Below are positions 53,269 through 63,730 of a stretch of DNA of 64,000 bases, one piece after another. Position numbers and translations under genes: made by a program. Location: assembly GCA_018820855.1 (NCBI GenBank), contig JAHJNL010000007.1, positions 1 to 64,000 of the forward strand. Reading direction: 5' to 3'. Each line of letters starts with the position of its first letter. Position 1 is the first letter of the stretch. Below the pieces are notes generated by a model that saw only the letters and a program-made list of their open reading frames with translations, was not told the DNA's origin and did no database searches. This DNA is from Pseudomonadota bacterium (GTDB lineage Bacteria; Desulfobacterota; Desulfobulbia; Desulfobulbales; Desulfocapsaceae).

Positions 53269-54723
53269 TTAGGCACTGATCTTCCCATGACGAGGAATGG
53301 TAATAGTACAACGATTCGATTGATCTTCTTCTTCTCTGATTACAGCGAGGTTACCACCAAAGGTCTGTAAAAACTGTCTGCAGAAATTCATATTGTGCCA
53401 CGGCCTGTTTGAGCTGCGGCTGTGGAGAGAGTTGTCTAAGTTCCAAGGGATTCCATTGTCATAAATAGATATAGTTATATGGGATTCAGTTATGGACTCA
53501 TGATTGATGCTGATATCTATCCTCTTGGTATCTGATTCATTGTTTTGAAATCGGGTGTTCAGGGCAGTCCTGCTGCTTTGGATGGCTGCCAAAATGACCA
53601 ATTGGAGATCGCTGACATGGTTATTTAGTGAAATAGTACTGTCTGCGAGGCTGACATTCAACTCAATACTATCGGTTTTGAGCGTTCCTCTGATGAGGGT
53701 TGATACGTGGTCAAAAATCTCTCCCAGAGTCAGGGTTTGTCTTTCACCACTTTCACTTCCACTGGTAAATATAATCATATGGGTGAGTAGCTCCGACATC
53801 TTTTTCTCTTCGGAAAAGAGTTTTCGCAAAATAGATTTAAAATCGCTGTCTATTTGTAACTCATCAATGAGGTCTAAAAGTGCCTGCGTATAGTTTGTAA
53901 TGCCATTGGAGAGATTGGTCAGTTCATGACTCAGTCCACTCAAAAGATGTCCGATGCTGCTGTATCTATAGAGGCGGGCCAGTTCTTTTAGCGGCCATTG
54001 ATGCTCCATTTCTGCTGCCGTTTGAACTCCATCTTTTGACTGTTGTGAGGCCAGTGACTCTATCGCTGAATTGAGCGTAAAAAGAGATATTTCACCGGAT
54101 GATTTTGTCGGAAAAAGAGATCTGCAATAATGAAGGATAGGAGTCGTTATGTATTTAGCAACCACCAGAAGCATGATGCTGACGGTTGCAACTATGAGGG
54201 CAAGCATACCAACCAGTGCACGATGGAGTCCCAGAAGCTGTGTCTGGGTATATCTGCTAATAAGTTGATGAAAACCTGTAAGTTTTGTATTGATGGCTCG
54301 CAGTTGTCTGGAGAGTGAAGCAAGTTGTGCTGAGGTTGGTGTGTGTGGCGTGTTTTGGATATTGCGCAGGCTTACTGTTATATTGATCAGATCAACCTGT
54401 GTTATATAGGCGAGTTTAAACTCTTCAGGAATAAGGATGTCGCTCAAGACGATATTCAACTCTTCATCAAGTTCCTCGATTTCTTTTATAATATCAGCGC
54501 TGTTTAATGGCTTTTGACTCAGAAGGGTGTCATTGATATGCTCTTTTATGCCAGTAAACTGAAAAAGAAGATTCTGGCTGGAATTGACAAGCTGTTCACA
54601 ATGACGATAGAGGAAATACTGTTTACCGGCAAGAAAGATGACAACGAAGAGCAGACAGACCGTTAACCCTGTAAAGACATAAAAAACACTTTTCAATGAA
54701 ATTTTTGAAAAAATGAGCTTCAT
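53269..54723 (-). CDS. Membrane histidine kinase with degenerate ATPase domain
   Basis: 484 residues. Two membrane helices (about 12-34 and 172-194) enclose a helical periplasmic domain. The H-box region reads GLSHELTNLSNGITNY with a His near 270. The C-terminal HATPase part has IYDNGIPW at the G1 position, but no clear F-box or G2 glycine-rich loop, so ATP binding is questionable. AGGA lies seven bases before the ATG. It lies downstream of the redox operon, after a terminator, and upstream of the small membrane protein genes. No partner response regulator is next to it. Confidence 0.65.
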   Translation of the reverse strand: MKLIFSKISLKSVFYVFTGLTVCLLFVVIFLAGKQYFLYRHCEQLVNSSQNLLFQFTGIKEHINDTLLSQKPLNSADIIKEIEELDEELNIVLSDILIPEEFKLAYITQVDLINITVSLRNIQNTPHTPTSAQLASLSRQLRAINTKLTGFHQLISRYTQTQLLGLHRALVGMLALIVATVSIMLLVVAKYITTPILHYCRSLFPTKSSGEISLFTLNSAIESLASQQSKDGVQTAAEMEHQWPLKELARLYRYSSIGHLLSGLSHELTNLSNGITNYTQALLDLIDELQIDSDFKSILRKLFSEEKKMSELLTHMIIFTSGSESGERQTLTLGEIFDHVSTLIRGTLKTDSIELNVSLADSTISLNNHVSDLQLVILAAIQSSRTALNTRFQNNESDTKRIDISINHESITESHITISIYDNGIPWNLDNSLHSRSSNRPWHNMNFCRQFLQTFGGNLAVIREEEDQSNRCTITIPRHGKISA

Positions 54724-54802: not shown

Positions 54803-56056
54803 CTATTTCTCACCTTTCCATCCATATACGATGGGTAGTCGATAGACGATGAAGCGGTAGGTCAGGAAGTAGAGGGAGTAAACAGTAATTGTAATCCATA
54901 CTTCTTTCCAATGTGGAATTTCCTGATATAGCTGCCAGTTATAGCAAATCATTGAAGTGTTGAGACGATTCCAGATAATTCCTAAGGCAGCGATAAGGGC
55001 TGCAAATCTGATCAGTCCAACATAGTGATTTCTGATTCCTACGGCAAACATGAACATAGGTAAGACAACGGCTATTCCCAATTCCAGCATGTAGTAACTT
55101 CCCCAGCCGGTAAGGAGATAGGACCATTCTTGGTCATGGGCAACAGCGACGATTTTAATTATCAAATAGGTAATCATGGCATAGGAGCAACCTTTTGCAA
55201 GTCCTATGGTTATGTAGTCCAAATTGTCCTTGAACTCATCATCACAGCGCCATGCCATAAAATTTCTGATTAACGTTGAGGAGATGATGACCATGGAAAG
55301 TCCGGCAAAGATGGATGAACAGAAAAAATGAATCCATTGGAAATTGACTGACAACCATAATGGATGGACCTTTGATGGCGCATAGGTAAATAAGGCACCT
55401 AGTGCTCCTTGGTGGAGGGTAGAAAGAATAATACCAGCGATTGTCAGCCCCAGGACCATCTTGCGAATGACCCGTTTTCCCTTGAGCCAGCCAATCCATT
55501 CAAAAAATGCCGGGAGAACTTCTGCAATTTGGACGGAGAGATAGGTTGCAACATGCCAGGCAACAAGGAAAAGAACAGCTGCTGGTCCAAGAGAGACAAA
55601 CATCGGATAAGGGAGCCGCCAGGGCATACCAAGGTCTACTTCGAGAAAAAGAACAGCAAAGAAATAACCCAGAAGCCCGTTCAGCAGGGCCAAGCGTTCA
55701 ATGGGATGAAAATCTTTTCTGCCAAAGAGTTCCACTGTGGTGCCCAGCATGAATCCAGATGCTGAAAGGGGAACCATTCCGAAGAGACCGAAACCAAGAA
55801 AAAGTCCCCAGGGGTAATCATTGGAGGCGTGGGTGACAGCTCCAAGACCATAGATGTAACGCTGAAGGATAAGGGGTACACCAAGGGCAAAGATACCTAT
55901 CATCAGCCAGTTTACAGGATTTCTGAAAAATTGTTTTTTGTATTCGGCAACAGACAGCCCTAACCATAGCTTTTCCTTGATGGTCCACTCTGTTCCATCT
56001 GCTTTCAGATGATTGACAATCGGAATTTCAGGTCTTTCCTTTGAAAAGAATCTCAT
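54803..56056 (-). CDS. HybB/NrfD-family quinone-interacting membrane subunit
   Basis: 417 residues with about ten hydrophobic helices. Similar by eye to E. coli HybB: RYIYGLGAVTHASNDYPWG near residue 45, and LSTLHQGALGALFTYAPSKV followed by HPLW near 215. It exchanges electrons between quinones and the membrane-bound iron-sulfur partner. It overlaps the HybA-like gene by 4 bp. No hydrogenase large subunit is here, so the partner is probably the pentaheme cytochrome. Exact complex type (Hmc-like, Cbc-like or other) is not decided. Confidence 0.85.
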   Translation of the reverse strand: MRFFSKERPEIPIVNHLKADGTEWTIKEKLWLGLSVAEYKKQFFRNPVNWLMIGIFALGVPLILQRYIYGLGAVTHASNDYPWGLFLGFGLFGMVPLSASGFMLGTTVELFGRKDFHPIERLALLNGLLGYFFAVLFLEVDLGMPWRLPYPMFVSLGPAAVLFLVAWHVATYLSVQIAEVLPAFFEWIGWLKGKRVIRKMVLGLTIAGIILSTLHQGALGALFTYAPSKVHPLWLSVNFQWIHFFCSSIFAGLSMVIISSTLIRNFMAWRCDDEFKDNLDYITIGLAKGCSYAMITYLIIKIVAVAHDQEWSYLLTGWGSYYMLELGIAVVLPMFMFAVGIRNHYVGLIRFAALIAALGIIWNRLNTSMICYNWQLYQEIPHWKEVWITITVYSLYFLTYRFIVYRLPIVYGWKGEK

Positions 56057-56982
56057 ACCTGTTCCTCCTTTTCTTCTTGTTCTTTGATCTTTTCTTTTCT
56101 CGTTGCCAGCAGATGGAATCCAGCGAAAAGACCAGGCCAGATGGTGAGGACCATGGGAACAATAGCTAAGAATTCTTTAACGGAATTCAAGATCGGTTCT
56201 TTAGGGACATGGGTATCAAAACCAACCTTGTCAAAAGAAACACTGGAAAGGTACATCCAGGCAGTCCCGCCCACTTCAGTTTCTCCATAAATATGCTCTA
56301 CATATTTTCCGGGTGTCTCACGAATTCGCTGGCGACCCATGTTGATCAGGTCGTTGCGTCGACCAAATGTCAGTGCTTCCTGAGGACAGGCTTCGACACA
56401 TGCTGGTGGCTTTCCATCTTTTAAACGGGTATCGTAACAGAAAATACATTTCATGATCCGGGGATTAAAGGCACTGGAATATTTAAAGGTTGGAATGTAA
56501 AACGGGCAGGCGATCATACACGTTCTGCAACCGACACATACTTTTGAGTTATAGATAACCGCACCTTCAGGTGTCTTGGTGTAGGCATTGACAAAGCAGG
56601 AGGTCAGACAAGCTGGTTCCTGGCAGTGATTGCATTGGACCTTGCGGAAGAGGGGATGGTCGAGCTCGGGAATATCGTATTTATTTACAATCGTATAGGC
56701 AGTTTCGTCGGTTCGTCTCTTCTGTCCATGTTTGATTTCGTCAAAGACTGAATAATCATCAAAGGGCTTGGCCGGTTCTGGAAGTCCCTGTTCTTTGTTA
56801 CAGGCCGCTTCACAACTTCTGCATCCGACACAGCGAGTGAGGTCAACAAGCACGCCCATTCCCTCAGGATAGCCCTCAAACGTTTGCGCCGCTTGCGTTT
56901 CATTGTTTTTCATTACTGCAATAGCTGCAGTACCGGCAAGCCCGCCTTTTAAAAGATTTCTACGGCTTACTGTTTTTTTCAT
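56053..56982 (-). CDS. HybA-like periplasmic iron-sulfur protein, Tat-exported
   Basis: 309 residues from the ATG at 56982, with AGAGGA upstream; the longer frame start at 57120 is not needed. The start carries a twin-arginine motif SRRNLLK. Cys clusters CVGCRSCEAAC, CNHCQEPACLTSC, CVGCRTCMIAC and CIFC...ACVEAC (the last split by 13 residues) bind four [4Fe-4S] centres. A C-terminal membrane helix follows (near 272-292), as in HybA. It passes electrons between the NrfD-like subunit and the cytochrome. Confidence 0.87.
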   Translation of the reverse strand: MKKTVSRRNLLKGGLAGTAAIAVMKNNETQAAQTFEGYPEGMGVLVDLTRCVGCRSCEAACNKEQGLPEPAKPFDDYSVFDEIKHGQKRRTDETAYTIVNKYDIPELDHPLFRKVQCNHCQEPACLTSCFVNAYTKTPEGAVIYNSKVCVGCRTCMIACPFYIPTFKYSSAFNPRIMKCIFCYDTRLKDGKPPACVEACPQEALTFGRRNDLINMGRQRIRETPGKYVEHIYGETEVGGTAWMYLSSVSFDKVGFDTHVPKEPILNSVKEFLAIVPMVLTIWPGLFAGFHLLATRKEKIKEQEEKEEQV

Positions 56983-57116: not shown

Positions 57117-57644
57117 TCAATGACCAGACTGTTGGCCTTTTGCGGGGCTGTGGCTACCGGTGTTAAACATTTTCTCACCGGACTCGGTCATGGTATGACA
57201 GTCCAGACAACCGGTTGGGCCGGATGTAGTCTCATGGCAACTTACGCAGTTGAGGTGATAGGCACCTTTTAGTCCAGGCTTGTCAATATGGTAAAGTTCA
57301 GGAGCTTCTAGGGCTCTGATATAGGTTTCGCTAAAACGATTCGTCGCATGGCATCCGGTACAGGTTACTTCATCAGCTTCTCCACTGTTACGATGACAGC
57401 GGGCACAATTTGGGTTAACAACCGCTCCTCCGGTGGTGTGGTGATGGCATTCCTGACAACTTGCATATTCTACGTGCATGGCATGGTTAAACTCCACACC
57501 CGTATAGAGATTGGCAAGACTATCAATAGTTACAGACTCAGGAGCATCCTCCGCATCCATTGACCAACCGTGAGTAGGAATTATCAATATTCCTCCAAAT
57601 GCCAGAGCGAATGCTGTCTGTATTATTCTTTTTCGTGTTCGCAT
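57117..57644 (-). CDS. Pentaheme cytochrome c
   Basis: 175 residues with a signal peptide (1-28). Five CxxCH haem motifs are visible: CQECH, CARCH, CTGCH, CVSCH and CLDCH, in residues 64-152. AGGAGG lies seven bases before the ATG, inside the last codons of ftsH, so translation is strong and overlaps ftsH by 22 bp. Extra His residues near haem 1 (CHHHTT) suggest bis-His ligation. It is the likely periplasmic electron carrier of the HybA/HybB-like pair. Confidence 0.88.
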   Translation of the reverse strand: MRTRKRIIQTAFALAFGGILIIPTHGWSMDAEDAPESVTIDSLANLYTGVEFNHAMHVEYASCQECHHHTTGGAVVNPNCARCHRNSGEADEVTCTGCHATNRFSETYIRALEAPELYHIDKPGLKGAYHLNCVSCHETTSGPTGCLDCHTMTESGEKMFNTGSHSPAKGQQSGH

Positions 57645-59521
57645 TTTGTTTCCTCCTTATAAAAACTTCTGGGTAATCCTGAAATTCTTTGGTTTTGTTG
57701 TGCCCTTTCCTCCTTCTGATGTTTCATAAGTTTTTTCTCAATACTCTTTTCATTCATATAGCAATAGTGGACGATATCCATTTCTTCGCCATCTACGGTT
57801 TCGTTGACGAGTAGCGCTTCGGCAAGTTTGTGAAGGAATTTGTTATTCTCGGTAAGGAGTACCAACGTTTCGTTGTAGCATTCTTCTATGATTCGTTTGA
57901 TCTCTTTATCTATATTCTCAGCTGTTTTTTCGCTGTAGGGCCTGGTTGTTGGGGATCCTCCCAGAAATCCGCCCTGTTCCTGAATGTATGCAACAGGTCC
58001 AATGGTTTTGCTCATGCCAAATTCGCAGACGAGACGGTTGGCTATATCAGTCGCTGTGAGGATATCATTGCTGGCACCAGTCGTCTGATGACCAAAAACA
58101 ATGTCTTCAGCAACACGTCCACCCATGAGAATTTTTATTCTGTTGATCAGATATTCACGTGAATAGGTGTATCTGTCATCAAGGGGCAGTTGTTGGGTGA
58201 GACCTAATGCCCTCCCTCGCGGCATAATGGTGATTTTATGGACAGGATCAGTCTCTGGAAGGAGTTTGGCTGTGATGGCATGGCCGGCTTCATGATAGGC
58301 CGTGACTCGCCTGACTGTTTCATTGATAACGACATTCTTACGTTCAAGACCGAGACTGATTTTGTCTTTCGCTTCTTCGAAATCAGAGAGTTCTACAGCG
58401 GTCTTGTTGTGTCGTGCGCCAATTAATGCAGCTTCGTTGACCAGGTTGGCAATTTCCGCACCACTGAATCCTGGGATGGACCTTGCAACTTCAGAAAGAT
58501 CGACGCCAGGTGCCATGAGAATTTTTTTGGCATGAACTTCGAGTATCTTACGTCTGCCTTTTGCATCTGGCAGACTAATGGTTACCTGGCGATCAAAACG
58601 ACCGGGACGGAGTAGGGCAGGATCAAGGATGTCAGGACGATTGGTGGCTGCAATGATAATGACAGTCTGGTCGGAATTAAAGCCGTCCATTTCCACAAGC
58701 AGGGCATTTAAGGTCTGCTCGCGTTCATCATTGGAACCGGTTGCATTGCCACCACTGCGTTTCCCGCCAATGGCATCTATTTCATCGATAAAAATAATTG
58801 CTGGTGCATTTTTCTTTGCTTCTGTGAAGAGTTCCCTTACTCGAGATGCTCCAACTCCTACAAACATTTCGACGAAATCTGATCCGCCTATGGAAAAGAA
58901 GGGGACCGATGCTTCGCCTGCAATCGCCTTGGCAAGGAGAGTCTTGCCTGTTCCTGGAGGACCCTGCAGGAGAACTCCTTTGGGGATGTATCCGCCAAGA
59001 CTGCTGAATTTCTCAGGGTTCTTTAAGGACTCAACTATCTCTATAAGTTCAGATCGGGCTTCACTGATACCTGCAACATCCTCAAAGGACACTTTCGTAT
59101 TTTTACTTGGTACAAAAGAGCTGTATTTGTTTTTTCCTAAACCTGAACCGCCTTTTTTCTGTGTTCGGCTGAAGATCAGGTATCCACCGAGAATGAGAAA
59201 AACAGGGACCATTGATTTGAGAAAGCCTCCAATATTCTCTGTGTCTTTTTCCGCTGTTATCAGAACCGATTTTTCTCTAAGAATGGTTAAGGTGGCGGGG
59301 ACATCAGGAATAAATGAGCTGAAAGCTTGTTTTCTACAGTCTTCGCCTTTTACTGCCCCGCCTTTTAAATGGACGGCTTTAATTTCACCTTTTTGCAGTT
59401 GCTCCATGAAATCTGTATAGGAAATTTCATTGGGAGTTGTTTCGCTAAGGTAAACATTGTAGCCAACGACCCCTAAAAGTGTGAGGAGCAGTAAGAGTAA
59501 TCCTATTTGAATTTGGGACAT
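57623..59521 (-). CDS. ftsH: ATP-dependent zinc metalloprotease FtsH
   Basis: 632 residues with two membrane helices (about 5-25 and 105-120) and a periplasmic domain between. AAA+ motifs: Walker A GPPGTGKT near 190, Walker [13 protein letters not shown] near 245, and [18 protein letters not shown] as second region of homology. Protease motif HEAGH near 413 is complete. It is probably an extra copy, since it sits inside a redox operon rather than beside hpt/tilS-type genes. Its ATG lies 4 bp after the transposase-like gene stop, and its end overlaps the cytochrome gene. A role in quality control of the haem/iron-sulfur membrane complex is inferred. Confidence 0.92.
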
Positions 59522-59525
59522 AGAA

Positions 59526-60440
59526 TCATTCCGTAGTAGTATTGGCAGTTATGTTTCTGTACGATCGTGATTTTTGTGAAAGAACTGCTGATAAGAGGAG
59601 ATGAAATATTGCCTCATTGTCGGAAAGCATTGCCACATTGCTGCGAAAGCAGAATTCATCTAAATAGAGCTGGAGATGTTTGGCTACCACCCCTCCTCTA
59701 TGAATCTTGTTCAACCAGATTTCGAAACTTTTTATTATTTGTTGGATGCGAACAGCTGTGGCACTTTTCGCATCGGTAACAGTTAGATATGCATCCTGGT
59801 CTCTTACGTGATAAGCAAGACTGTCAGGGACAACAAGTGATGATCCGGCAGCTACATGCTTGACTAGAAAATGGGTTACTGAGTTACTTGAGAGATCACT
59901 GATGGCTTCCATTTTAATTCTTCCGGTGATTCCTGATGGCAGAATGATCTCAGCTGCAGCAAGAATTTTTTCTTTGTGTCCCATATGGCCACCTAACAGT
60001 ATGCTGTCAGACCAGAGTTCGACGGTTCCACGACATGGCTTGTTATCTGCAACCGCCATAGCCATGCGAAGTTTCTGTAGCCATGTCCAGGCAGTTTGAT
60101 AACTTGAAAGGTTCAAGAGGCGCTGTAAATCTTTAGCGCTATGTCCTCCATCAGTAGATGCCAGCCACCAGATGCATGAGAGCCACTCAATTAAGGCCTT
60201 TTTCGTTCCATGCATTATGGTATTGGTTGTTATCGAGGTGGGATGTCCGCAATGACCGCAGGTTATGGTTTTTGTAGGTTCTTGTTCCTTCTTTCTCCAG
60301 TTGCAGTAAGGGCACACAAAGCCATTTGGCCAGCGTTTATTAAAGAGAAAATGTAGACTGGTAGTTTCGCTATGAAACTCTTTCCTGAATTCTTCTATTG
60401 TTTTTGGAAATCGATTTTTAGGAGCGAGAATGGCCTGCAT
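59526..60440 (-). CDS. IS1595-type transposase homologue, probably domesticated
   Basis: 304 residues. An N-terminal zinc ribbon (CPYC near residue 42 and CGHC near 61) is intact. The ISXO2-like DDE region follows, with YLDEFCFRSN near 265 conserved. Active-site residues look lost: where the family has VEVDE the sequence reads VELWSDSILLGG, and the Glu in the later NxxE-type position reads IKSF. A second Asp (VPDSLAY) remains. GGAG lies six bases before the ATG, and a sigma-54 promoter lies 46 bp upstream. The stop is 4 bp before ftsH. No terminal inverted repeats were found around it. It is best read as a retained DNA-binding protein, not an active insertion sequence. Confidence 0.7.
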   Translation of the reverse strand: MQAILAPKNRFPKTIEEFRKEFHSETTSLHFLFNKRWPNGFVCPYCNWRKKEQEPTKTITCGHCGHPTSITTNTIMHGTKKALIEWLSCIWWLASTDGGHSAKDLQRLLNLSSYQTAWTWLQKLRMAMAVADNKPCRGTVELWSDSILLGGHMGHKEKILAAAEIILPSGITGRIKMEAISDLSSNSVTHFLVKHVAAGSSLVVPDSLAYHVRDQDAYLTVTDAKSATAVRIQQIIKSFEIWLNKIHRGGVVAKHLQLYLDEFCFRSNVAMLSDNEAIFHLLLSAVLSQKSRSYRNITANTTTE

Positions 60441-60714
60441 GTGTTCTCCTCAAATTTTGAACTTATCCACTTTAATTTGAGTAATTGCACATACAATGCC
60501 AGAGAGTAGATCTCTTTTGTTTAAAGGCTAACTAACCGAAAGTACGTATTATTGGTGGGTGTTGTGTCGGTGGGATATTTTTAGAGGAAGAACTGGAAAG
60601 GAAGAGAGGTCAAGAAGATATTGAAGTTTATATTTGTTTAATGTGTTGTTAATACAACGTATTATCGTTTGTGTGCGGCTGTCAGATGGCAAAATGAAGG
60701 ATTACTACACAAGT
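60441..60714. other. Non-coding gap between the response regulator and the transposase-like gene
   Basis: About 325 bp including the elements listed above. Besides the sigma-54 promoter and the repeat cluster, no gene or RNA could be supported here. Confidence 0.5.
60486..60501 (-). promoter_or_regulatory. Sigma-54 promoter of the transposase-like/ftsH/cytochrome operon
   Basis: On the minus strand the bases read TGGCATTGTATGTGCA: TGGCA matches the -24 element and TGCA the -12 element, with GG and GC exactly 10 bases apart. Start would be near 60475, about 35 bases before the ATG at 60440. A sigma-54 activator gene lies just upstream. Confidence 0.7.
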
Positions 60715-60762
60715 GCTGTCAATGCCACACATGTGATTCTACACAAGTGTGGCATTGACAGC
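60702..60762 (-). promoter_or_regulatory. Nested repeats upstream of the sigma-54 promoter, candidate enhancer
   Basis: Perfect 16-bp inverted repeat GCTGTCAATGCCACAC (60715-60730) and GTGTGGCATTGACAGC (60747-60762), loop 16 bases. Over it lies a direct repeat CTACACAAGTG at 60705-60715 and 60739-60749 (34-bp period). The cluster centre is about 260 bp upstream of the predicted start near 60475, and begins 4 bp after the response regulator stop. No T tract follows, so a terminator alone is unlikely. Confidence 0.55.
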
Positions 60763-60765
60763 AGA

Positions 60766-62586
60766 CTAAATATCTATGGTGTTGATATTGATTTTTAGTT
60801 CTTTCAGTTTTCTATACAATGTTGATCTATCCATACTGAGCAATCTGGCTGCCTTGGCTTTGTTTCCTCCTGTTTTCTTTAAGGCGGCAATAATGCTATT
60901 TTGAAAGAAATGATGCTGTGATGGCGCAGTAAACGATACAGCAGTGTCAGATTGCCGCCGGGCTGGCTTCTCTTGCAGAAGGGAGGCTGTGTTCTCAGGG
61001 TGAGCGTAAGCTTGAGGATGCTGGATTTCCAGAGGAAGTTGTTCGGTTGAGATGGTAGAACCGTTACAGAGCACACATGAGCGTTCGATTACATGTTCAA
61101 GCTCTCTGATATTCCCTGGCCATTGATATTGGGAAAGTAATGCCATGGCCTGATCTGAAATACCGGTAATAGGTTTGTTCATTTTTTTGCTGAACAGCTG
61201 GATAAATTTATTTGCCAGCAGTTCAACATCGCCATTACGCTCGCGAAGGGCGGGGAGAATTATATCGATAACTCTGAGGCGAAAATAAAGATCTTCACGG
61301 AAGTTTCCCTGCTGCACCTTTTCACGTAGATTCACATTGGTTGCCGCAATCACACGGACATCAACCTGAATGGGCGTGTCTCTGCCAACGGGATAAAAGG
61401 TTTTTTCCTGAAGAAAACGTAGGAGTCGAAGCTGCACCATTGGGGAAATATCACCTATTTCGTCAAGAAACAGGGTGCCTCCATCAGCTTGCAGAATTCG
61501 CCCCATCCTGTCTTGATCAGCTCCGGTAAAAGAACCTTTTTTATGTCCAAAGAGTTCACTTTCCAAAAGGTTTTCTGGGATTGCTGTACAGTCAACTTTT
61601 ACCAGAGGACGGTTTTTTCTATGACTTTCCAGGTGCAGGGCTTCTGTGGCAAGCTCTTTACCGGTGCCGCTTTCTCCGGTAATAAGCACAGCGGAATCGA
61701 CCTTTCCAACATTTTCGATCATGGCATAGACAGTTTGCATGGCAGCGCTGGCACCGATCATTCGATGGAAAGATTCACGCTGTTTAGAGTTGCTTTGTGC
61801 CTGGCATGACATATCGCGGATAACAATCACGACACCATGGAATCCCCCTCTTCCGTCCTCTAGAGGAGAGATACAGAGACTGAATACTTTCTCAGTTCGA
61901 GACGCAGTGGTGAACTCAATTCTGTGTTCTTTGATTTCAATACCGGATCGTAATACTTTTTCTACATCATCTTTAAAAAAACAAGTGCTGTTGTCGGTGC
62001 AGGCCATGGAAAGATTGTTTCCTTCTCGGATCTCTGAATTAATTGATCCGAACATGGAGCGGGCTGCCTGATTCATTTTGATGATATTCATGTTTTCATC
62101 AATCGTCATAATACTGTCGGAGACACTTCTGAACAGCGTGATTAAGTAGCTGCGATACTTGTCTTTTTCTTCTGTCGCCAGTTGTTTTTCTTTCTGGAGG
62201 CGATGCTGTTGCAAGGCAAGGCGGGTTGTTTTGAGGAGTATTTCCTTGTCAACCGGTTTCTGGATGTAGTCAAAGGCACCAAAGCGCACTGCTTCAGAGG
62301 CTGTATTAACAGTAGGGTATCCTGTGATCATAATCACAGGGCTTGAGATTCCCAGCTCGCGGATTCTTTTTAATAGATCTATGCCTGAACTACCTCCAAG
62401 GACGATATCGCTGATAATCAAATCAAAGGGCCGGCTGGTAAGCTCGCTGACTGCTTCTTCAAAATTGGATGCCATGATAACAGGTCCATATCCTTCCCTT
62501 TTGAGAAAAATCTGAAAAGTATGGCGTAAACTTTCTTCATCGTCGACTATAAGAATTGGGGTTTCAGCGTTTGCTTCTTTATTCAT
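60766..62586 (-). CDS. Sigma-54-dependent response regulator with PAS domain (NtrC type)
   Basis: 606 residues. Receiver (about 8-125): VDDEESL, Asp in LIISDIVLGGSSG, Thr in ITGYPT, Lys in DYIQKPV, all intact. A PAS domain follows (about 150-260). The AAA+ domain has GESGTGKE near 310, GSFTGADQ in place of GAFTGA, and GGTLFLDEIGDI. C-terminal Fis-type helix-turn-helix GGNKAKAARLLSMDRSTLYR. It should be phosphorylated by the kinase encoded beyond 63770 and activate the nearby sigma-54 promoter at 60486-60501. The PAS part allows a second input. Confidence 0.92.
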   Translation of the reverse strand: MNKEANAETPILIVDDEESLRHTFQIFLKREGYGPVIMASNFEEAVSELTSRPFDLIISDIVLGGSSGIDLLKRIRELGISSPVIMITGYPTVNTASEAVRFGAFDYIQKPVDKEILLKTTRLALQQHRLQKEKQLATEEKDKYRSYLITLFRSVSDSIMTIDENMNIIKMNQAARSMFGSINSEIREGNNLSMACTDNSTCFFKDDVEKVLRSGIEIKEHRIEFTTASRTEKVFSLCISPLEDGRGGFHGVVIVIRDMSCQAQSNSKQRESFHRMIGASAAMQTVYAMIENVGKVDSAVLITGESGTGKELATEALHLESHRKNRPLVKVDCTAIPENLLESELFGHKKGSFTGADQDRMGRILQADGGTLFLDEIGDISPMVQLRLLRFLQEKTFYPVGRDTPIQVDVRVIAATNVNLREKVQQGNFREDLYFRLRVIDIILPALRERNGDVELLANKFIQLFSKKMNKPITGISDQAMALLSQYQWPGNIRELEHVIERSCVLCNGSTISTEQLPLEIQHPQAYAHPENTASLLQEKPARRQSDTAVSFTAPSQHHFFQNSIIAALKKTGGNKAKAARLLSMDRSTLYRKLKELKININTIDI

Positions 62587-62608: not shown

Positions 62609-63730
62609 TTAAGAAAAGGTGGTGAGATCTCGAAAGACCACCACTGCACCGGTAAGTTTATTACTTTCTATAATTGGGGTGGAAGTGTACTCTACGGTGA
62701 AACTGCTCCCATCTTTTGCCCAGAAGATATCATCCGACTTGAAGTGAACCTCTCCGTCCTGGCAGGCCATGTGAATTGGACAATCTTTATCTTTATAGTG
62801 GGTTCCGTCGCTATGACTGTGATGAACAAGGTCATGATGTGACCTGCCGATTAACTCTGCCTGTTCCCAACCAAGCATTATGGAAGCAGCCTTGTTCATG
62901 AACGTCACATTGCCGTCAATGTCCAAGCCGAAAATTCCTTCTCCGGCAGAATTGAGGATGAGTTCCAGCTGTTTTTTGAGTTTTTTTGTTTTGCCGATAT
63001 CTTTAAATACCACCACTGCACCTGTGACCTTGTTCTCATCAAGAAGCGGTGTGGATGTGTATTCTACGGAAAAGTTCTGGCCAGACTTTTTCCAGAAGAT
63101 ATCATCGGATTCAGAATAATCTTGTCCTTCTTTATAGGCTTTGAGGATTGGACAATCCTGAACCGGAAAATCAGTGCCGTCCTGGTGGGAATGGTGGACC
63201 ATGCTATGGTGGGGATTTCCGATGAGTTCTTCTGCACTCCATCCGAGTAATTCGGTCGCCTTCTGGTTGACAAAAGTTACTTTACCCTGAATGTCGAGGC
63301 CGACAATGCCATCGCCTGCGGAGTTAAGAATAGCCTGCAGCCTTTTCCTCAGTTTGATTCCTTCTGCTTCTGCCTGAATTCGTTCCGCTATTTCTCTGTT
63401 TAAGGAGCCATTGATTACAGACATTTCAAAGGTCTTTTTTTCCACAGCAGCATCAAGACTGGACTGGACATAGTTTAATGCTTCAGTAGTCGAGTTGAGC
63501 TTTTCTTCAAGTTGCAGCAGCCGTTTTTTATAAGAATTAGATGCGCCGATGAAAAGAAAGAGAGTGAAGCCGTAGAGTGAAGAGAGTGTTACAAGGGACC
63601 AGGATTCATAGGGAATATATGATATGCTATTTGCGTTTGCTGTAATTTTAAGGTCAAGGACGTACAAAATCACAGCCACAGAAATGAACGCCAAAGAAAG
63701 CAACAGAGAAAAACGGAATTTAGTGGTCAT
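62609..63730 (-). CDS. Membrane tandem-PAS sensor protein without kinase domain
   Basis: 373 residues: two membrane helices (about 8-24 and 47-63), a coiled coil (65-130), and two PAS domains (about 133-250 and 257-370). Each PAS has a repeated insertion with HHSHQDGT or HHSHSDGT and a later DCPI, so the domains are paralogous. No H-box or ATPase follows. AGGAG lies six bases before the ATG. It sits between a histidine kinase (stop 39 bp upstream) and the response regulator (22 bp downstream), so it is a likely third component of this sensory system. Confidence 0.85.
   Translation of the reverse strand: MTTKFRFSLLLSLAFISVAVILYVLDLKITANANSISYIPYESWSLVTLSSLYGFTLFLFIGASNSYKKRLLQLEEKLNSTTEALNYVQSSLDAAVEKKTFEMSVINGSLNREIAERIQAEAEGIKLRKRLQAILNSAGDGIVGLDIQGKVTFVNQKATELLGWSAEELIGNPHHSMVHHSHQDGTDFPVQDCPILKAYKEGQDYSESDDIFWKKSGQNFSVEYTSTPLLDENKVTGAVVVFKDIGKTKKLKKQLELILNSAGEGIFGLDIDGNVTFMNKAASIMLGWEQAELIGRSHHDLVHHSHSDGTHYKDKDCPIHMACQDGEVHFKSDDIFWAKDGSSFTVEYTSTPIIESNKLTGAVVVFRDLTTFS

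Follow-up and report, generated by a model that had tools for sequence, protein, structure and literature searches.

The window (i.e., the whole stretch of 64,000 nucleotides of contig JAHJNL010000007.1 that was analyzed) carries an operon on its minus strand headed by tnp (positions 59526 to 60440), which encodes an IS1595-type transposase of 304 amino acids without conserved catalytic acids and was identified from its open reading frame, domain searches, and alignments. Behind it on the same strand follow ftsH, encoding an ATP-dependent zinc metalloprotease (57623 to 59521), and the genes for a multihaem cytochrome c with five CXXCH motifs (cyt; 57117 to 57644), an HmcB-like iron-sulfur protein (56053 to 56982; the frame is open from 57120, and an ATG followed by what looks by eye like a Tat signal lies at 56982), and an HmcC-like membrane protein (54803 to 56056). 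The scores against the equivalog models were below the cut-offs for both HmcB (397.8 versus 420) and HmcC (363.5 versus 550). A gene for a sensor-kinase-like protein, named by eye, ends the conserved block (53269 to 54723, minus strand). Upstream of the operon, also on the minus strand, are genes for an NtrC-type sigma-54 response regulator (60766 to 62586), which resembles many families of this kind at scores below their cut-offs, and for a PAS-type protein, named by eye, that belongs to the conserved block (62609 to 63730).

The original prediction had described an intact tnp frame that stops 4 bp before the ftsH ATG and is preceded by a good ribosome binding site and a sigma-54 promoter. 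The sequence agrees on these points, to which the strand (minus) has to be added: the frame runs from an ATG to a TGA, the start of ftsH lies 4 bp past the stop, GAGGAG precedes the tnp ATG (ribosome binding site region, 60441 to 60455, minus strand), and a sigma-54-like -24/-12 box, TGGCATTGTATGTGCA, is found at 60486 to 60501 on the minus strand. This box scored 14.5/16 against the -24/-12 consensus, and none of 50 shuffles scored as high. An operator-like element, AAAGTGGATAAGT, occupies positions 60461 to 60473 (minus strand); with +1 placed by the usual sigma-54 spacing, it would extend from roughly +3 to +15 relative to the predicted start. The element thus falls in the predicted 5' leader, and it may act on the RNA.

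Farther upstream lies an inverted repeat with two 22-nt arms, 95% complementary and 6 nt apart (60714 to 60763), which the NtrC-type activator probably uses as its upstream site; the palindromes fit such an activator because similar ones were seen by eye in several operons without tnp. On the same grounds, palindromes of the TTGCNACA...TGTNGCAA type were rejected as a site of the transposase. The near-perfect repeat at 60714 to 60763 lies directly behind the NtrC-type gene and could alternatively be its terminator. A search for known RNA families at the leader gave only sub-threshold microRNA-type matches, all of them to this repeat.

The tnp protein comprises a zinc ribbon (residues ~23 to 70), a helix-turn-helix (HTH) region named from predicted helices (residues 71 to 135), an RNase-H-like domain (residues 136 to 251), and a C-terminal helix (residues 252 to 270). 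It scored above the cut-offs of the Pfam models Zn_ribbon_IS1595 and DDE_Tnp_IS1595 and of the NCBIfam model transpos_IS1595. Among 44 orthologues, Pfam detected the zinc ribbon in all 44 and the DDE domain in 34, and the zinc cysteines (C43, C46, C61, and C64) do not vary, which bears out the claim that the zinc ribbon is intact. An AlphaFold2 model based on 44 tnp sequences (pLDDT, 88.2; pTM, 0.87) has helices in the HTH region and indicates that the fold remains. With VIA-align, Z scores for the model rose to 12.3 against the Hermes transposase and were ~11 to 12 against retroviral integrase cores, with matches mostly over residues 136 to 273; the best Foldseek match was the ISCth4 transposase, with an E value of 1.8e-4 but a TM-score of only 0.35. 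Mean column identities in the operon set were 0.48 for the zinc ribbon, 0.56 for the HTH region, and 0.28 for the RNase-H part, and the corresponding values for 20 other IS1595 proteins were 0.37, 0.42, and 0.34. A protein search of the window's own genome (4.82 Mb; 106 contigs) gave a single tnp match, and a more sensitive profile search counted a second.

For the catalytic site, we compared 51 operon copies in one alignment with 20 IS1595 proteins encoded elsewhere and 7 relatives from Paenibacillus. Against the 20 IS1595 proteins, the window protein reads W, P, and S at the three catalytic columns. All three catalytic residues stand in the aligned columns in 17 of the 20 IS1595 proteins but in none of the 51 operon copies, so that scoring the acidic positions against the family, as the original prediction had proposed, left no operon copy with a complete set. 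The first Asp column is filled in 20/20 IS1595 proteins versus 13/51 operon copies, and the second is filled in 19/19 (one protein is cut) versus 0/51. The third column reads N in 17 of 19 IS1595 proteins and L in the other two; in the operon set it reads S (23), E (10), R (4), Q (4), H (3), G (3), C (2), K (1), and D (1). The window protein has a D two residues behind the first catalytic column and another D one residue behind the second. When the alignment was allowed to slip, suitable residues were nearby in 5 (one residue) or 12 (two residues) of the 51 operon copies. The best single columns among the 44 orthologues hold D in 13 (first region) and in 19 (second region), and D or E, always E, in 25 (third region). 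For the window protein alone, the catalytic loss therefore depends on the alignment. Across the operon clade, the predicted loss is clear, because an acid needed for catalysis would be expected to keep its column, yet no column is conserved. The suspicion that the first Asp and final Glu regions no longer fit the DDE motif was thus well placed.

All 51 distinct operon proteins group together in a single clade, with SH-aLRT support of 100 against the 20 IS1595 and 7 Paenibacillus proteins and of 99 after 17 nearer relatives were added. Its sister group consists of 20 transposases from the same phylum, 18 of which have the first two Asp (the exceptions are L207, which lacks both, and L099, which is cut); the third catalytic column reads L in this group. 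Distances between tnp proteins track those of HmcC (r = 0.92; 43 loci; 0 of 2,000 permutations as high) and of NtrC (r = 0.94; 35 loci). On the HmcC tree, the label tnp needs nine changes, a count in which 4 of the 20 rows entered as lacking tnp (L142, L144, L146, and L106) are cut by contig ends. The gene is under purifying selection, as the suggested Ka/Ks comparison brought out: dN/dS was 0.04 to 0.23 in 14 pairs, the values being rough in the 4 pairs with a dS of >1. In most pairs, these ratios exceed those of FtsH, NtrC, and HmcC (up to ~6 times HmcC) and are near that of the cytochrome; in six of seven pairs, the DNA-binding half gives a lower ratio than the RNase-H half.

In a phylum sample of 395 genomes, 13 had a match at 1e-50, and 11 of these lie outside the order. 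Eight of these 11 (all but G281, G583, and G618) were placed in the tree and fell outside the operon clade, so that orthologues elsewhere in the phylum were rejected for the genomes placed. The sister-group member L207 (G440:C12:47046-47924) is a full-length IS1595-like frame outside the operon clade, on a long branch, whose Asp positions are lost (VEVGIVKVS and IIGQVASAT). The Paenibacillus loci L039 to L042, L045 to L047, L058, and L059 are IS1595-like as well; the seven compared lack both the first and the second Asp and group in a clade of their own, and the set may represent independent dead or domesticated transposases, two of which (L040 and L045) are in one genome.

Some IS1595 match, true insertion sequences included, was found in 62 of the 93 genomes of the same family, and the operon HmcC (E value of 1e-90 or better) was found in 47. 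An orthologue of tnp occurs in 41 of these 47 genomes, always beside the NtrC or ftsH gene. Of the remaining six, two are cut by contig ends (G066 and G082), two have NtrC-ftsH-cyt-hmcB-hmcC without tnp (G068 and G069), and two carry HmcC at another kind of locus (G028 and G029). The place of tnp is also kept in a second family, named Desulfobulbus included. On contigs of sufficient length, the order kinase-PAS-NtrC-tnp-ftsH-cyt-hmcB-hmcC (the first two genes being named by eye) is seen again, also in genomes of the second family; it is present in Desulfobulbus rhabdoformis DSM 8777 and D. elongatus DSM 2908 and is conserved from tnp on in Desulfobulbus sp. GS12.

In 59 of the 60 rows listed, a few of which show the same locus again, tnp and ftsH are separated by -8 to +13 nt (median, -4). 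At L067, however, tnp is kept with no ftsH between it and the cytochrome gene, and G136, G155, G156, and G157 have ftsH without tnp. Because each gene is thus kept without the other, the durable unit is NtrC-tnp-(ftsH)-cyt-hmcB-hmcC rather than a transposase-ftsH pair. The tight linkage that had been predicted, and its recurrence in related genomes, stands, whereas the unit to which it belongs is the whole NtrC-regulated operon. Several lineages have lost tnp or never gained it, and it is dispensable, because these lineages have the operon without it; a search for tnp relics in 11 tnp-less gaps found none (best E value, 0.31). At L160 (G150:C48, 7657 to 8556), a tnp of the operon clade stands behind a kinase and an NtrC gene with no ftsH, cytochrome, or hmc genes; it has a long branch and is without the element, and it is perhaps decaying after operon loss. 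In G122, tnp is in two pieces on contigs C55 and C22 (profile positions 4 to 111 and 66 to 301), which reflects a contig break or a rearrangement.

No terminal inverted repeats (TIRs) were found flanking tnp: with up to one mismatch, the TIR core of the sister elements occurs between 59000 and 61500 only at one site, upstream of the ATG, and a repeat search around the gene gave no convincing flanking pair; in the best candidate (13 nt; 85%), one of the arms falls within ftsH. As positive controls, IS1595 insertion sequences in relatives do show ends, and 8-bp target duplications are present in control elements. Among the sister-group rows scanned, 16 of 20 gave ends, most of them like GGGGTATCCACTTnACTC, with an exact 8-bp duplication in 9; the scan found no ends for L194, L199, L099, the third L203 frame, L094, and L097. 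Near-identical IS1595 copies in G035 and G036 have ends of the TCTGATTAC type, with 8-bp target duplications at the G036 pair. Unlike an active insertion sequence, with its variable place and often several copies, tnp has one close copy and a conserved gene order. Where the original prediction had looked for evidence against domestication, we thus found catalytic acids that are not conserved, no flanking TIRs, and the tnp-ftsH pair present in relatives.

Of 44 operons, 43 have the -24/-12 box ahead of tnp, as do all 8 further rows (L138 repeats L034, the two being the same region), and an NtrC-type regulator adjoins these operons wherever the contig reaches; L064 has no clear box. In clade 1, from which L160 was kept out, AAAGTGGATAAGT recurs at one fixed offset behind the box in 31/31 rows (30 distinct regions), with small changes in some, and carries 1.64 bits per position versus 0.17 behind the element. 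In nine operons without tnp, the box is conserved, the stretch corresponding to the element carries 0.02 bits, and AAAGTGGATAAGT is found in none of the nine. This set excludes the tnp-less loci L156 and L143, which gave no -24/-12 match; four of the nine (L147 to L150) represent one genus, a full ftsH is missing behind NtrC at L150 and L154, and the box of the tnp-less L102 lies at the very start of the ftsH frame and is doubtful. These comparisons support the view that the operator-like element goes with tnp in clade 1, being present with the gene and absent without it.

The pattern of box plus element has 30 matches in the 257 genomes of the order, with a maximum of one per genome, versus 0 for the reversed control. 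All 30 lie on the tnp strand, 16 to 150 nt upstream of the matched tnp start. That each genome has one such site points to a regulator that acts locally. For the window's own genome, a wider regulon was rejected: the 13-mer occurs there exactly once, and its one-mismatch copies are at the control level (7 versus 7). In clade 2 (13 operons), the best match of the clade-1 matrix is shifted by one nucleotide in 11 operons, where it falls on a related stretch such as CAGGATAGG (1.03 bits per position in this clade), but only 4 of these scores pass the 95% level of shuffles. Behind the box in clade 3 (six operons), no shared element was found. The tie between element and gene is therefore strong in clade 1, weak in clade 2, and not seen in clade 3. 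The tnp leader of L133 (G115:C96) contains the element twice, as the inverted repeat ACTTATCCAC-AGCAGA-GTGGATAAGT, an arrangement that would suit a dimer.

Read as its reverse complement, the element includes TATCCACTT, which is the TIR core of the sister IS1595 elements; the terminal Gs of those TIRs are missing from the operon. We built a first TIR matrix of 13 columns from 13 of 16 end pairs (L200, L206, and L207 were left out by hand). In the 140-nt promoter region, its best match fell at the same position, that of the element, in 31/31 clade-1 rows, with p values of ≤0.05 (100 shuffles each) in 29 of them (L026 and L136 miss). It matched at the element position in 1/13 clade-2 and 0/6 clade-3 operons and, among those without tnp, in 1/9 (L154; p = 0.5), none of the nine reaching 0.05. 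The stretch behind the box of L154 (G101:C4), CAAAGCATAAAT, shares CAAAG with the element; the likeness is not significant and may be a remnant or chance. A second matrix, chosen by script from all pairs of at least 16/18 (L200, L206, and L207 included) and including the terminal Gs, overlapped the element in 30/31 clade-1, 3/13 clade-2, 0/6 clade-3, and 2/9 tnp-less rows; column-permuted matrices gave at most 23/31 clade-1 overlaps in 200 trials. The TIR of another IS1595 subgroup (TCTGATTAC) was rejected as the source of the element, as it overlapped in 8/31 clade-1 rows versus 30/31 for the sister-group matrix. In clade 2, this unrelated matrix did no worse (4/13) than the script-chosen one (3/13), and the likeness to transposon ends is lost in the divergent clades. 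For the window region alone, the script-chosen score was reached by 75 of 5,000 shuffles, so that the single-site match is a moderate one; its force comes from recurrence in sequences that are related, not independent. The orientation of the element is that of a right end, so that it is not simply a left end that stayed behind.

As read from sequence, tnp combines IS1595 ancestry, unconserved acids, purifying selection, a fixed place, a promoter box, and an accompanying element, and it is very likely a domesticated transposase. We consider it probable that the transposase, once dead, retained the domains with which it bound transposon ends and turned into a local autoregulator of the redox operon. 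The gene descends from an IS1595 transposase whose catalytic residues were lost and whose zinc ribbon and HTH, the parts with which the related IS1 binds its ends, were kept. It has a fixed position at the head of a sigma-54 redox operon (tnp-ftsH-cyt-hmcB-hmcC) that is presumably activated by NtrC, and it seems to have stayed there over a very long period. The NtrC-type activator, probably on the upstream palindromes, would drive sigma-54 transcription of the operon, and the tnp product would bind the element that resembles a transposon end, a short way past the point where transcription of this operon begins, and damp transcription, giving negative autoregulation. FtsH may in turn remove this regulator, a speculation from gene order. 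A DNA-binding role is supported by an operator-like element that, in clade 1, is present with tnp and that operons without tnp lack; we infer the activation, the binding of the protein to the element, repression as the sign of the effect, and a physiological signal. Of the proposal that a former transposase serves as a DNA-binding or regulatory protein in a redox operon, the domestication is thus upheld, with an operator-like element accompanying the gene in clade 1, and the regulation is what we infer.

Alternatively, the element might belong to another factor, such as DnaA, or be a feature of the mRNA leader, with the transposase doing something else. Part of the element, TTATCCACT, resembles the DnaA box (TTATCCACA), and the element lies inside the predicted leader. 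We nevertheless regard this explanation as unlikely, given that the conserved stretch extends to CTT (1.5 to 1.7 bits), as in the TIR and unlike the DnaA box, that the core is absent from 11/11 tnp-less gaps, and that the stretch is altered where the transposase diverged (clade 2). Slightly less probable still is a domesticated protein that acts on FtsH, whether as an adaptor translated together with this protease or as its regulated substrate. The stop-start overlap or short gap in 59/60 listed rows would suit such a partnership, but tnp occurs without ftsH at L067 and at L160 (with NtrC and no hmc genes), ftsH occurs without tnp in G068, G069, G136, G155, G156, and G157, conservation is higher in the zinc ribbon and HTH than in the RNase-H part, and the conserved element would be left unexplained. 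That tnp is an ordinary IS1595 insertion sequence, active or recently dead, standing by chance before ftsH is hardly credible, since its Pfam and NCBIfam membership and the IS1595 elements with readable ends in the same order are set against catalytic acids that are not conserved, a lack of flanking ends, a fixed place in two families, purifying selection, and HmcC-like distances.

The autoregulatory reading can be placed beside several known systems. With the insertion sequences of the IS1595 family (ISXO2-like), reportedly described by Siguier and colleagues in 2009, tnp has in common the zinc ribbon, the HTH region, and the RNase-H-like domain, and it differs in its unconserved acids, its lack of flanking TIRs, its one close copy, and its fixed place. 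The sister IS1595 elements of the same phylum share ancestry with tnp, and their end sequence resembles the operon element. With the Hmc respiratory complex (HmcB and HmcC) of sulfate reducers, the operon shares an HmcB-like protein, an HmcC-like protein, and a multihaem cytochrome, but its HmcB and HmcC equivalog scores are below the cut-offs, and tnp and ftsH are also present. If the proposed regulation is true, it would add a new control layer to an Hmc-type electron-transport operon of sulfur bacteria.

Transposases co-opted as transcription factors are well known in eukaryotes, and in bacteria the turning of a transposon protein into a transcription factor is already known for TnpB (TldR). 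What is new here is an element (AAAGTGGATAAGT) at a fixed distance behind the box that goes with tnp and is like the sister TIR core. Among the matches listed in a literature search whose scope took in few subscription journals, nothing concerned a tnp-ftsH pair or an IS1595-derived regulator, and the available part of a review of recruited mobile elements (PMC8987985) contains no occurrence of IS1595 or DDE.

InsA of IS1 binds both IS1 ends with a zinc finger and an HTH and represses the IS1 promoter, which overlaps the left end (PMC12428005). This autorepression is a precedent for the binding and the repression proposed for tnp. InsA belongs to, and regulates, a still-mobile IS1, whereas tnp encodes a full-length transposase-derived protein, predicted to bind DNA, in a host operon. 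The fold of TldR differs from that of the tnp product. TldR is described as a nuclease-dead TnpB that lost catalysis, kept nucleic-acid binding, became a transcription factor, and is tied to non-transposon genes (PMC13418256). It is RNA-guided, whereas for tnp a protein-DNA site is proposed, and the tnp protein and the element form a directly testable protein-DNA pair. In its fullest form, which we favor by a narrow measure, our reading is that a DDE transposase became the dedicated autoregulator of a sigma-54 respiratory operon, having lost catalysis and kept its end-binding specificity, with an operator that descended from, or converged on, its own TIR, and that it has been kept across two bacterial families as a protein-only counterpart of the RNA-guided TldR repressors. 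If this is true, a DDE transposase whose TIR specificity was kept for a host operator would lay open the whole path of co-option, because sister elements with readable ends, most of them with the first two Asp, still exist.
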